Assembly: GCA_037893245.1 (NCBI GenBank)
Contig: JBAIAA010000704.1
Location: 1,830,066-1,894,065, forward strand
DNA from: Crossaster papposus
Taxonomy: Eukaryota > Echinodermata > Asteroidea > Velatida > Solasteridae
Length of the DNA: 64,000 nt
Direction: 5' to 3'
Part shown: positions 35,546-42,500 of the stretch, piece by piece
Layout of the letters: every line of letters starts with the position of its first letter
How positions within the stretch are numbered: position 1 is the stretch's first letter
Notes under the pieces: model-generated
The model's input: only the letters and a program-made list of their open reading frames with translations
Told to the model about the DNA's origin: nothing
Database searches by the model: none
Position numbers and translations under genes: made by a program

Positions 35546-36186
35546 CCCCGGCCTTATAGTACGCACTGTCACTGCACTGGAAATACTTATAATATTTAAT
35601 ATTACATGGGGATGATGTACTTGAATTAGCTAGGCCTAACGTTAGTTGATGTTTTTACCAAAACTTATCCACGTTTACCTTCTTTTTTTACGAATCGTTG
35701 TACTTTTTGTATCGAACCATGCATGCTGCGCACAGAGCGCCCTCAATCATTATTATTGCATTTTATTACAAATGCTCAACTAGCTGCCAGTCCTTCCATC
35801 GCCGATTCAAATGCTGACGATCACTTCGAACGAAATGTGGCGGGAACCAGTCTACCATAATGCCTAATGTATATTTAGCCTGGTTCTCACTCAATTACCA
35901 GATTACTTTCGAAGTCAACTTCAGAATCTCTTCTGATGAAGGGACTGGATACCACTCCAGATAATATATATTGAGGGCGCTGTAACGTAATTGCAGAAAG
36001 ATATGATGAGTTGATTGTTGAGCTTCGAAACAGCGCTAAAAATCTTGGATTTTGTTTCAGAACTTGGTAAATTATACATATGTTTAGGCTGCACATGATT
36101 TTTTTTTTTTGGGGGGGGGGGGGGAAGAAAGAAATCGAAGGAGTAATTTGCACTGTCACTTGGTTGTCATGAAGATTATTTTACAT

Positions 36187-36407
36187 CACCGAACCGCGGC
36201 GCAGGATTATTTTTAACGAAACTCGATCCGAGGCGCGGGTTCAGGCCGATGGTACCGGGAAGCACACCCACGCATTTCCGGCCTTGGCTTGCTCGCTGCT
36301 GACAGACATTAGTCATTACCGGCCTTGCTCGTGATGTTTTTATGTGTCATCTGTTTTGAATCTTGGAAAACTTTGCTTATATACGTCCTCCGGCGCGAAC
36401 TGGTTAA
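36187..36407. mobile_element. R1 TTAA-bounded element, reverse copy
   Basis: Right end GGCGCGAACTGGTTAA is intact; the left end is eroded. Core shares 'ctcgatccgaggcg', 'cacacccacgcatttccggcc' with the other copies. It lies about 110 bases before the EIF2B2 start codon, so it may be within its promoter or 5' UTR intron. Confidence 0.8.
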
Positions 36408-36517
36408 ATCATGGAGGAATAAGAACATTTTGTAAACATTTTCAGATTTCCTTAGTAACTTAGACCTTAGTTTATTTCAGGTCGTGACCGTCATTTTAGG
36501 CAGAGCCAAGCCAAATT

Positions 36518-39500
36518 ATGACAGATCTGACTGAGAGGATTAATACATTTATATCTGATCTTCAAAAGGGGTAAGTGATTTTATTTGTCATCAAATTAAT
36601 GCTGTCGCACTTGTGAATATAATATGTAGGCAGGTTTAGTGCCTTAATGTTGTGGCAATGCCGTAACTAAGTTGTGAATATTTGCAAAAATTCAGTGTCC
36701 CTTCCCATATCCCTCTTTTTCTACCACCCCCCCCCCCCCCCCCCCTTCGGATGTGTATGCAACGATATGTCAAATGAACCACATGTGGCTTCTGAAGATA
36801 TTGACTAATTGGGGAAACCGCCAACACAGGACTGGATAGCTCAGTTGGTAGAGCACTGGAATGGCAAACCGAAGGTCGCTGGTTCAAGTCCTACTCCAGT
36901 CAATTTATTTGGTTTTGGTTTTAGGAGGGTGAAGGGTTCATACGATGTGGCCCACCAGACCCTATCGTTACTGCGGAGGGTGATTGCCCAGACGCGGTGG
37001 GGCAGCGCGGCCGAGCTGATGGCCCGCATCAGACTGGAGGGACTGAGGATGATGGGTGCTCAGCCTGCCGAGTCGGCCGTAGGGAACATGGTCAGGAGGG
37101 TCATCAAGATCATCCGAGAGGAATTTGCTGCGTAAGGAACTAGGGAGATTGAATTTCTCCTTGTTGATTGGTTTACATTGGTAGGCTAAATAATACATAT
37201 TTGTTGTTTGCTCACCATTTATAACACGTCATTTGTGACAAGGAATAAACAATGACACGGGTCATTCTAACAACTTATGACTTAACTTGGCACTAATTGA
37301 CTTATCATTGATTTTTTAATGACCTACTGTGACTAGGAAGAACTTCAAGACAAAAAGTGTAGTTTAAGACCATAGGTTAAAAAGTTGCAGGTTTTTTTCC
37401 CCAAAGTACTGATCAAAATTATAAACAATCTAGAGTTAAAATGAAAAAGACTGGTCGATGATGCAAAAGTCATTTTAAAATTGACAGGTGTCCTAAACAC
37501 TTTTACCAACTCGAATGTAACTCTATGACAGTGCCATCCTGGGGTGGGAGATGACAACATTCACGTGGTCCACCCTGTTTTCACTAATGTCATCAAACGA
37601 TATGCAGTAACACGTTAAGCTGTTCATCATCATACGAAAGAAGAAGAACAAGTGCCATCCTGCATTGAATCCATGTAAAATAGATTACACTCATGTTCAA
37701 GGGGGCTATTAAGTCCTTGGGTTTGCCACAGATGGACTTTCTTCTTGGGTTCACCTGGAAATTAACTGTATCTGTTTTCTCTAGTGCAGAATAATCAAGG
37801 GACAGAGCGTGGATTCAACAGATCAGCAGGAGTCATTACACGTGAGTATTTCACTCCCCCTGGTTTCCTCTCGATAAGGCTGTGTCCTAATTATTTGGCT
37901 ATGGCTTCAAATTACACACAAGTCTATGTCAAGTGGCTGCAGCCGCTACCATAGTCGTGTGTAATTTCAAGCATAGCCAAATAAGGCTGTGTTCAAAATA
38001 AGCTACTAGAGCTACGGCTATTGTCATTCTGCTCACACGTAATTGTAGACAATAGCCATAGACAAGAGATTCGGACAAAGTCTATTTCTAAGACAGCCCA
38101 ACATTAAATTGGGCTTGAAGTCAGGCGTACAGTCCCAATTTAGTGTCACTGATAAGAATGCCATTTGTTTACTGTGGTTGTGAGAGGCAGTTTAGTAAAA
38201 AAACAAATATTTTATGTTACTTTTCTTATTTCCTGTCAATAGAAAATGCTGGTGGCTGAGGGTCAAGTTGATGATTTCAACGTTCCTAGTCCAAACCTCA
38301 AGGTACCATTTTGTACAATCATTTCAATTGATTTCTGATGAAGGGATTGATACAAATTTATGGGTTTTTTTTCCCCTCCTACAATATATAACAATAAATC
38401 TTTCTGGTAATGAAACCAAGGATTCCTAAAACGCGTTCCGGGTTTGATGGGATCTGTTAGGATGGGTACTGGACCCCTACACAGATTCCAACAGTTTGTG
38501 TGTACAGTTTGCCATATGGTGTTGGAATTTGCAAGGATGGGTATGGTTCCTAGTAAATTACACCTGTAGTGCTCGGTTCAGACAGGCGTTCCACAGTCGC
38601 GCCAAACCAAATTGAAATCAAGTCGCTCCTGAGTCGCTCTAACAACTCCAGCAGTCGATCGTTCGCCGTCTGGCACGCCTTGTCGCCCTTATTCGTATCA
38701 GACGTCGAACTCAATTCACTCATTTGGTTCGGTGCGACTGTGGAACGCCTGTCTGAACCGAGCGTAAGTTAGCGTTAAGGCTTAACCCTAACTACCCCAA
38801 ACCCATCAAACTCCAACTGCAGCTTTTGCTAGGTTTTGGCAGGTTTGGTACCAAACCGTAACAACTTGTTGTTAGACTTTGTTTGACTCAGTACCAAAGG
38901 CCCAGGGAGACCCTGTTGAATTCTGTGAGGTTCAGGACAGAAAGGCATGAGACTTGTCAAAATGTTAGAAATTTTGAGAATGCACAGGCAGTTATACGTG
39001 AGTGACCCACATTGTCATGGCACAGTTCCTGGTCAACTGCAAGTGATGTACACTTTACACCTTGTATGTGTGTCCCCACTAAAACACATAATACCACTGG
39101 CCAGTTATCACTATACCAAGTCAATAAAACTTCAACTGTTGGAGTTTGGCAGGTTTAGTACTGTTAGGTTCAGTACAGTGTACCAAAAAATACTGAACCT
39201 GTGTGAGCTGTTGAAGTTTGTTAGGTTTGGTATACTTCCTAGTGCGAGAGCCTAGGGGGTTAGGGTTAACTGTCTTTACGTTTATGTTTCTCGCAGGTTC
39301 GAGTCATCGAGAGCATTAATGAGTTACTAACGGAGCTCGAGAGCAGCGCCGATAACATTGCCATGCAAGCATTGGAACACATTCACTCTAATGAGGTCAT
39401 CATGACCATGGGCAAATCACGCACGGTGCAGGCCTTCTTGCTGGTAGGTTTTTAATTTGGACATGCAGTTGATGATTTTTTTATCAACATATATATCATG

Positions 39501-42500
39501 TTGAACTTGCAAGATTTCTGGAAGCCAGAGTCTAATCGTTTGAAATTGATTTGCAAAAAATTAATAATAATAATAATAAAAGGCAGTTCTTATATAGCGC
39601 ACGTATCTACCAAGACTGGTACTCAAGGCGCTCTCACATTATTACCCCGGTCATTGGGCCCATGAAACATTCCAAATACCATCTCAGCTCCCTTGGGAGT
39701 ATACAGCTTGATGCTGCCATTTTGGAGCAAAGCAGCTAAATCAACCACAATAACCATCTCTGCCCTCACAGTTGCCCATTTACTCCTGGGTGGAGAGAAG
39801 CAATGAGTGACAAAGTGCCTTGCCAAAGGGCACACGCACCGTAGTCCCAGGCCGGATTCAAACCCACAACTTACTTTAAAATACGTCAGCAGCCCATAAT
39901 ATCCATCGCCACATTTTAACCTGCGAGGAAGGCAATTACAGCAGCTTGATTGTGTAAAACTTGATTGACAAGTACAGTTTCAAATTATCAAATACTAAAT
40001 TATTGGAAAATGGACAGCTGTTTTTCCTTTATATTACAGAATGCAGCTCGGAAGCGCAAATTCCATGTGATTGTCGCCGAAGGAGCACCATCCTATCAGG
40101 TGGGTCCTTAAAACAAAACAAAAAGTTTCTTTTTATTTAGTTGTAGTACCCTTTAACCCTAACCCCCTAGGCTCTCGCACTAGGAAGCATACCAAACCTA
40201 ACAAACTTCAACAGCTCACACATATGTTCAGTAATTTTTGGTACACTGTACTGAACCTAACAGTACTAAACCTGCCAAACTCCAACAGTTGAAGTTTTAT
40301 TGACTTGGAACAGTGATAACTGGCCAGTGGTATTATGCGTTTTAGTGGGGACACACATACAAGGTGTAAGTGTACATACACTTACAGTTGACCAGGAACT
40401 GTGCCGTGACAATGTGGGTCACTCACGTATAAATGCCTGTGCATTCTCAAAAATTCTAACATTTTGACAAGTCTCATGCCTTTCTGTCCTGAACCTCACA
40501 GAATTCAACAGGGTCTCCCTGGGCCTTTGGTACTGAGTCAAACAAAGTCTAACAACAAGTTGTTACGGTTTGGTACCAAACCTGCCAAAACCTAGCGAAA
40601 GCTGCAGTTGGAGTTTGATGGGTTTGGGGTAGTTAGGGTTAACAAACGTCGACTCCCCCAAAACAGATTTCATTTAGGTTTCAAAACAAGTGGTTTGTAT
40701 TTTTTTATGGATTTCTTTCACTGCTTAAAATTTAGTGTCTACATAAAAAGTTGAGTACTAGATTAAAACTCGGTATTATTCTCATCCGTAGCTACCTCAA
40801 TTTGCCTGAAGAATAAAAAAAATGACTAAAGTCTTGTTGAAAATTTAGGGACACAAGCTGGCGATGAGGTTAGCCGAAGAGAAGATCCAGACGACAGTCA
40901 TCACGGACTCCGCTGTCTTTGCGGTCATGTCAAGGGTCAACAAGGTCATCATAGGAACACACACGGTCATGGCCAACGGTGGGTAAGGACAGTTTGTAAA
41001 CATTCCCAAAGGCGTGCATCGTTGCAGTGAAGTCTAGTTACAAGCCGAACCACAAGCCCAACCACAAGTCCAGCCACAATCCTAGCCACAAGCCCAGCCA
41101 CAAGCCCAGACACAAGCCCGGCCACAAGCCCGGCCACAAGCCCAGCCACAATCCTAGCCACAAGCCCAACCACAAGTCCAGTCGTAACAGCGGATAAACA
41201 GTAACAAAGGAATGCTGTGTTACACGGGTTCAGTGTCCGACAAGGAACATGGTGCTTGTGTTTTTGGGCAAGACACTTTACTACAATTCTCTCTCTCCAC
41301 TCAAGGGTATAACTGGGTACCTCTGATGGCAAAGACCAGATTGCACCCATCTCAAGCTACATTATTATTATTATTATTAAAAACAGATTAATTCATGGCC
41401 ATGATGACAAGGATATAACTGTAAAGGGCTTTGGTATAAACAAACTATATATAAACATATGCCATTTGTTACTTGAACATGGATGACTTGAGTGGATGAC
41501 TTGCCATTATAAGGGTCATGTCAAAGTTCAAGAGTCAATCGATGAGTAAAATGCTTCAAGAGCCCCCAAATCTTCTCCTTTGCCCTTACAGGTTGAAAGC
41601 TGTAAGTGGGAGCTACGCCTTGGCATTGGCTGCTAAGCACCATTCAGTTCCTGTAAGTAACCAAACACAATATGATTTTACAGTTAATAATAGTTAATTA
41701 CTGCTACGTGGGACGTGGTGTTTTTAAAACCCAAAGGGGCGCATAGTACCTCGAGCAAATTGTGCCAATAAGCCAACAAATTGAAAGACTTGTAACATAC
41801 TAGAAAGAAATTATATAAAGTGAAACTTTTTAATTACTGCAAGCTTCCCTTCCCTTCCAGTTTTTAGGCTGAGCGGTTGCAACACGGTGTATTATGGGGT
41901 AAACAGTTATTTTTATAAACAGAACATGTGGCCGGTCTAAACAACTGAAATTATGGTACAATAGTTTTTAGATGTAGTCATTATAGCCGTTAAGATTTTT
42001 TGACGGTGTCTCTTAAACATTTCTTGTTTTCAAAGTTTTTATTTCAATGCGGTTTTATTTCAGCTAATTGTGTGTGCACCGATGTTCAAACTGTCGCCTC
42101 AGCATCTATGCACTTACGATCAAGTAAGAAACTAAGTGTGATTATAATATGTATAGTTTTGAGAGTAGAACCTGTGAAAAGACAATGTTGCTTTAACCAG
42201 TACGCGCCGGAAGACGTATATACACGCACAGTTTTTCCCAGATTCAAAACGGATGATGCATAAACACCTTACAAGCAAGGCCGGAAATGTCCGTCAGCAG
42301 CGAGCAAGGCTAGAAATGTGTGGGTGTGCTTCCTGATACCATCGGTCTAAACCCGCATCAGATCGAGTTTCGTAAAAAAGAAAATCCCGTGCCTCGGCTC
42401 GGTGATGTTTAAATAATCCCGTGCGAACTGGTTAAGAGGGGCCAGTCATTGTGAAAGTTGCAAACTGAGCAATGTTTGGGCAATCAGCATATCCCAATTC

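Follow-up and report, generated by a model that had tools for sequence, protein, structure and literature searches.

Inverted MITE copies close to exons 5 and 6 of EIF2B2 in the sea star Crossaster papposus: a strong predicted intron stem and a candidate circular RNA

Can two copies of a transposon, lying in opposite orientation on either side of two coding exons, lead a transcript to release those exons as a circle? This question is raised by the EIF2B2 locus of Crossaster papposus, located in a 64,000-nucleotide stretch of contig JBAIAA010000704.1 (hereafter the window; G000:C704:1830066-1894065 of a 1.02-Gb assembly of 1,841 contigs), where introns 4 and 6 each hold a copy of the same miniature inverted-repeat transposable element (MITE). 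The best reading of the evidence as a whole, to which a probability of roughly 0.6 is given, is a tolerated chance pair of insertions that forms a pairing stem and yields minor circular and exon-skipped products. The observation represents a known kind of effect, and by analogy an effect on the RNA is plausible here. The features that bear directly on the pair are the following, in window positions:

38303-39296, forward strand: EIF2B2 intron 4, which holds MITE copy 1
38782-39269, forward strand: MITE copy 1, 488 bp, in intron 4 of EIF2B2, TTAA included at both ends
39297-39443, forward strand: EIF2B2 exon 5, 147 nt, phase 0 to phase 0, AG/GT borders, tblastn match to human eIF2B-beta
39444-40039, forward strand: EIF2B2 intron 5, 596 nt, with an unrelated dispersed repeat at about 39551-39872
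40040-40099, forward strand: EIF2B2 exon 6, 60 nt, phase 0 to phase 0, AG/GT borders, tblastn match to human eIF2B-beta
40100-40848, forward strand: EIF2B2 intron 6, which holds MITE copy 2
40153-40642, reverse strand: MITE copy 2, 490 bp, in intron 6 of EIF2B2, TTAA at both ends

The initial annotation described near-identical copies of 488 and 490 bp in opposite orientation around exons 5 and 6, and this arrangement was recovered by both a repeat search and BLAST. The repeat search returned three inverted blocks (38782-39045 with 40379-40642, 39055-39205 with 40219-40369, and 39200-39269 with 40153-40222; 98, 96, and 99% complementary, respectively), and BLAST aligned the copies in a single 491-column match (96.9% identical, 11 mismatches, 3 gap openings). 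The copies face each other across 883 bases. Copy 1 ends 27 nt before exon 5 (39270-39296), as had been annotated, and the gap between exon 6 and copy 2 is 53 nt (40100-40152), the previously given 54 being the offset. No further copies of the MITE were found in the window (BLAST, E <= 1e-3). Other, weaker inverted pairs are present, one of which (36174-36411 with 42189-42418, 79%) also flanks EIF2B2 exons 2-8, so exon-flanking inverted repeats are no rarity in the window; the MITE pair stands out by its identity and closeness.

As the two arms of a stem, copies 1 and 2 are predicted to pair at -915.3 kcal/mol, compared with -191.2 +/- 9.7 kcal/mol (lowest -217.6) for arm 1 with 20 dinucleotide shuffles of arm 2 and about -151 kcal/mol for each arm folded alone; these energies are equilibrium predictions that leave out proteins and transcription kinetics. 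The predicted minimum-energy fold of 38303-40848 pairs 477 of the 488 arm-1 bases with arm 2, and the TTAA next to exon 5 with the TTAA next to exon 6. Across the 21 intron pairs of EIF2B2 (introns 2-8), the combination of introns 4 and 6 had the strongest predicted pairing (-983.8, with the runner-up at -288.7). Complementary sequence is present in both flanking introns, as at circular RNA (circRNA) loci of the intron-pairing kind. The pairing potential that had been proposed for these introns agrees with these results, in which the strong predicted pairing forms one stem with both back-splice sites close to its end. A 13-bp stretch at the exon 5 acceptor (39287-39299) that is complementary to part of intron 5 (39918-39930) was also considered and rejected; at least one such helix occurred in 9 of 20 shuffles, and the real region holds two separate ones.

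In the proposed mechanism, two independent MITE insertions of opposite orientation in introns 4 and 6 would provide copies that pair in the pre-mRNA into a modelled stem of roughly 490 bp, with exon 5, intron 5, and exon 6 in the loop. The exon 5 acceptor would lie 27 nt from the end of the stem and the exon 6 donor 53 nt from it, and because the stem would end so close to both sites, two minor products would be favoured beside the normal mRNA: a 207-nt circle of exons 5 and 6 and an mRNA skipping both exons. The paired arms would additionally be a substrate for ADAR; ADARs have been reported as regulators of circRNAs (PMC8938519; papers are cited here by PMC number).

Both inverted Alu pairs in mammals and reverse complementary matches in C. 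elegans likewise place complementary sequence in the introns, where it is expected to bring donor and acceptor together. The EIF2B2 repeat differs from these systems in being a DNA-transposon MITE that matches nearly perfectly across 490 bp and lies near both exons, and in that its circle is only predicted. In C. elegans, deleting intronic complementary matches reduced both the circRNA and the exon-skipped product, full-length zip-2 mRNA was only slightly affected by match removal, and 7- and 13-nt matches can have an effect (PMC8330042). By analogy with this precedent, the EIF2B2 locus should give some circle and some mRNA joining exon 4 to exon 7, and low-level circular and skipped by-products are probably formed. 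Of the 69 residues that skipping would remove, 65 align with human positions 133-197; the protein from the skipped mRNA would therefore probably not work.

Several points weigh against this interpretation. Complementary flanks were found for 167 of 1709 exonic circRNAs (9.8%) in the sea cucumber Apostichopus japonicus, where the authors of the survey saw no bias toward such flanks (PMC6614181), and in cucumber MITEs occurred in both flanks of only 6 circRNAs (PMC6486992). Arm 2 would be transcribed about 0.9-1.4 kb after arm 1, and intron 4 may be spliced before pairing. The circle, the skipping, and the editing are predictions from sequence. For this family alone, such a close facing pair is not expected often under uniform scatter (0.14 pairs genome-wide for N=806, the count of MITE left ends given below), which leaves a non-random cause some scope, and other haplotypes may lack one or the other copy, one locus having been found among the best 40 of 4,225 candidates.

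The pair could also be inert, with linear splicing of introns 4 and 6 outrunning the pairing, or with the stem being unwound, so that only normal mRNA is made. This outcome is possible if somewhat doubtful: it is in line with the AG/GT borders of exons 2-8, with the single open frame of exons 2-7, and with the sea cucumber survey (PMC6614181), but the pairing predicted here is far stronger than in the 20 other intron pairs and worm matches of only 7 and 13 nt can matter (PMC8330042). Alternatively, the stem may act mainly as double-stranded RNA, being edited by ADAR and perhaps giving rise to small RNAs directed against the MITE family. The predicted near-perfect intronic stem of roughly 490 bp and the abundance of the family are consistent with such a role, which is nevertheless unlikely given that normal splicing would leave the arms on different lariats. 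There is no sign of selection for the arrangement or of translation of the circle; a tolerated chance pair is the simplest reading.

The coding consequence of a circle depends on the gene model. The gene was identified as EIF2B2 by its exons 5 and 6, residues 3-67 of whose 69 match residues 133-197 of the 351-aa human chain 6k71_C (E = 8.2e-26), and exons 2-7 form a single open frame when joined. Exon 1 was not found, so the exon numbering presumes one upstream exon, as in the initial annotation. The remaining exons are:

36925-37131, forward strand: EIF2B2 exon 2, AG/GT borders, tblastn match to human eIF2B-beta
37790-37841, forward strand: EIF2B2 exon 3, AG/GT borders, tblastn match to human eIF2B-beta in part
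38243-38302, forward strand: EIF2B2 exon 4, 60 nt, phase 0 to phase 0, positioned by eye with the help of its reading frame and splice borders
40849-40982, forward strand: EIF2B2 exon 7, AG/GT borders, tblastn match to human eIF2B-beta
41592-41652, forward strand: EIF2B2 exon 8, AG/GT borders, tblastn match to human eIF2B-beta

The exon model confirms that exons 5 and 6 are both phase 0 and sum to 207 nt (147+60) with no in-frame stop; frame 0 is free of stops, and both other frames contain them. The endless reading frame that had been highlighted for the circle is thus continuous as described, but its significance was over-read, as the same holds for exon 4 (60 nt, phase 0). Since exons 4, 5, and 6 are each phase 0 and each a multiple of three in length, any circle of adjacent ones would be stop-free; the continuous frame is automatic for phase-0 coding exon runs divisible by three and is therefore no evidence of translation or function. 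Translation of the circle would need an initiation signal of its own, and a report of circRNAs with native start codons gave no evidence that they are translated (PMC6487579). An infinite-frame circRNA shown to undergo rolling-circle translation is likewise stop-free in one frame (PMC4639774); that circle was prepared for the test, whereas the EIF2B2 circle is predicted from sequence. No paper on an EIF2B2 circRNA or on back-splicing of this gene was found in the open-licence literature, to which the search was confined, so the absence says little.

Other repeats were noted within the gene. ARAGORN called a tRNA-Ala (GGC) at 36830-36902, ending 22 bases before exon 2; in a genome search of which the best 40 of 1,102 candidates were scored, 39 others matched it at 88-92%, and the call looks like a tRNA-derived repeat on the acceptor site. 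Intron 4 also contains a 193-bp fold-back element (38571-38763; inverted ends of 42 bp, 95%) 18 bases before MITE copy 1, and intron 7 contains a 12-bp tandem repeat (AAGCCCAGCCAC-like) at 41018-41209.

The exon-5 edge of copy 1 carries a further feature:

39266-39269, forward strand: TTAA at the exon-5 edge of copy 1, which with the next C reads TTAAC; this resembles a branch-point motif, its A lying at -28 from exon 5 (a candidate by motif, not mapped)

TTAAC and TTTAC both follow the branch-point motif rule; intron 4 has an alternative TTTAC at -19, and intron 2 has TTAAC at -25. Insertion of a MITE into a TTAA within a branch motif would restore the motif by duplication. It is conceivable, though quite improbable, that the stem mainly disturbs exon 5 splicing by holding the candidate A at -28 in its last base pairs. 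A39269 is paired with 40153 in the predicted fold, and the TTAAC of intron 2 lends the motif some credit, but the same fold leaves the second motif-matching A, at -19, unpaired, and terminal A-U pairs fray. Still more speculative, and very improbable as a whole, is a transposon-built splicing switch, in which a MITE insertion within the intron 4 branch-point motif TTAAC rebuilt that motif at -28 through duplication of the TTAA target, the inverted copy captures it in the 490-bp stem, and editing or unwinding shifts EIF2B2 output. Were this true, EIF2B2 would switch between full-length mRNA and the 207-nt circle together with an mRNA deprived of the 69 eIF2B-beta residues, and the sensing of double-stranded RNA would be coupled to a translation-initiation factor. 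In open-licence papers, none on piggyBac or TTAA branch points in intron splicing was found by title.

A general preference of the MITE for 3' splice sites was separately examined with a crude acceptor rule and found no support. The rule was satisfied by 18 of 113 MITE flanks, including copy 1's own acceptor, versus 92 of 943 TTAA sites in the window; when one shared-flank group (L038, L061-L063, L066) was counted once, other shared flanks being kept, the proportion was 14 of 109 (12.8% vs 9.8%), with no clear enrichment.

The transposon identity of the copies, also put forward in the initial annotation, is upheld by their ends and by a genome-wide family. Both copies have TTAA directly followed by CCCTAAC at both ends and thus carry the CC[C/T]T terminal motif at each end; TTAA flanks and this motif are hallmarks of piggyBac-type MITEs (PMC2872659, PMC10813416). 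The exact terminal inverted repeat is 7 bp (CCCTAAC), with partial matching beyond, which is shorter than the 12-19 bp general for such MITEs (PMC2872659); Lytechinus variegatus is named among species with very short piggyBac repeats of 4-6 bp (PMC10813416). With 35-base end patterns and up to 2 mismatches, 806 left ends (398 forward, 408 reverse) and 2,113 right ends (628 forward, 1,485 reverse) were counted genome-wide, and reversed-pattern controls for both gave 0 matches. Tandem arrays at two loci (L058 on G000:C14 and L073 on G000:C31) have a unit of ~80 bp made up of the final 82 bases of the MITE with their TTAA, and are a satellite born from the transposon end. Such right-end-only arrays may account for the surplus of right ends; arrays carrying the reverse surplus were not located.

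Insertion at TTAA was examined in 62 MITE rows: the two window copies, 20 picked as full-length matches, and 40 picked by the right-end pattern including TTAA. The right TTAA was present in 62 of 62, as imposed by the picking. By the strict pattern, the left TTAA was present in 24 of the 40 rows picked by the right end alone, the 16 misses including truncated and satellite copies; the other 22 rows have TTAA at both ends but were chosen as full-length matches. Element-free paralogues align in register for L049, L051, L052, L067, and L090, with the flanks joined by one TTAA; the TTAA itself is retained only in the paralogue of L090, the other four having diverged there. These results agree with the TTAA target-site duplication of piggyBac-type MITEs.

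Genes for piggyBac transposase are many in the genome (116 scored matches). Four transposase loci whose ends were examined have TTAACCCTT at both ends; they share TTAACCCT and differ beyond it. BLAST of the MITE against 12 piggyBac transposase loci gave no match and identified no source element. As Kolobok elements use TTAA too, membership of the piggyBac superfamily is likely but not proven; judged by its sequence, the element is an abundant, short, non-coding, TTAA-flanked MITE, probably of piggyBac type. Coral CMITEs are alike in their TTAA flanks, CC[C/T]T motif, short non-coding form, and many copies, but the exact end match here is only 7 bp, and the tandem arrays here consist of the right end alone, in contrast to the full-sized arrays of the coral report (PMC2872659). 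Head-to-tail MITE junctions sharing a TTAA numbered 7 genome-wide (up to 3 mismatches). At L064, a MITE copy directly adjoins a diverged copy of the same family in the same orientation (element positions 18-223, 79%). Separately, piggyBac transposase matches recur at steady steps of ~11-12 kb on G000:C80, C336, C430, C592, C669, and C863, as if part of long tandem units.

How the pair arose was addressed with a 23-row alignment of the two window copies, 20 high-scoring places, and L005; the 20 places are the best-scoring hits, so the set leans toward young copies. Copy 1 differs from the majority at 11 positions and copy 2 at 4, with none common to both. The copies differ from each other in 15 columns, while the nearest of the 21 other rows is at 9 from copy 1 and 6 from copy 2, and neither copy is among the other's best 40 genome places listed. 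Their flanks differ, and similarity ends at the TTAA at all four ends. Because the copies share no derived changes and have closer relatives elsewhere, they are, as far as sequence can tell, two independent insertions; copy 1 looks older than copy 2.

A local inverted duplication of copy 1, or a fold-back artefact of the assembly, would also place near-identical copies face to face across 883 bases where 0.14 facing pairs are expected (N=806). This origin is extremely improbable; it is contradicted by the independent substitutions, the closer relatives of each copy elsewhere, and the separate TTAA sites with different flanks. Under uniform scatter genome-wide, the expected number of facing pairs with a gap of <=883 bases rises from 0.14 to 0.34 for N=1,256 (twice the forward right-end count) and 0.96 for N=2,113. 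The pair is uncommon for one family, yet it was picked post hoc among many repeat families. A second allele or paralogue of the locus was also sought; in the best 40 of 4,225 candidates, the 39 besides the locus itself cover only the dispersed repeat of intron 5.

Observations on two other contigs concern the assembly as a whole. The COX1 frame on contig C1841 contains 13 in-frame TGA codons, and in alignment to cattle COX1 its AAA codons fall at Asn in 6 of 7 cases, AGA at Ser (4), Ala (2), and Gly (1), and ATA at Ile in 13 of 21; this codon use fits the echinoderm mitochondrial code (table 9). Contig G000:C8 holds two more COX1-family places (L029 and L031, one in two overlapping pieces) that are stop-free, unlike the mitochondrial C1841, and is perhaps a bacterial associate in the assembly.

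Overall, with its near-identical DNA-transposon copies very close to the exons, the EIF2B2 locus provides a natural test case, in which carriers of both copies, one copy, and no copy could be compared. No papers on sea urchin circRNAs were found by title in the open-licence literature, the only literature covered, so this absence says little. The locus could show whether intron pairing drives circle formation in echinoderms, of which one published survey saw little sign (PMC6614181); if no circle forms even at the EIF2B2 pair, the pairing model would be limited.

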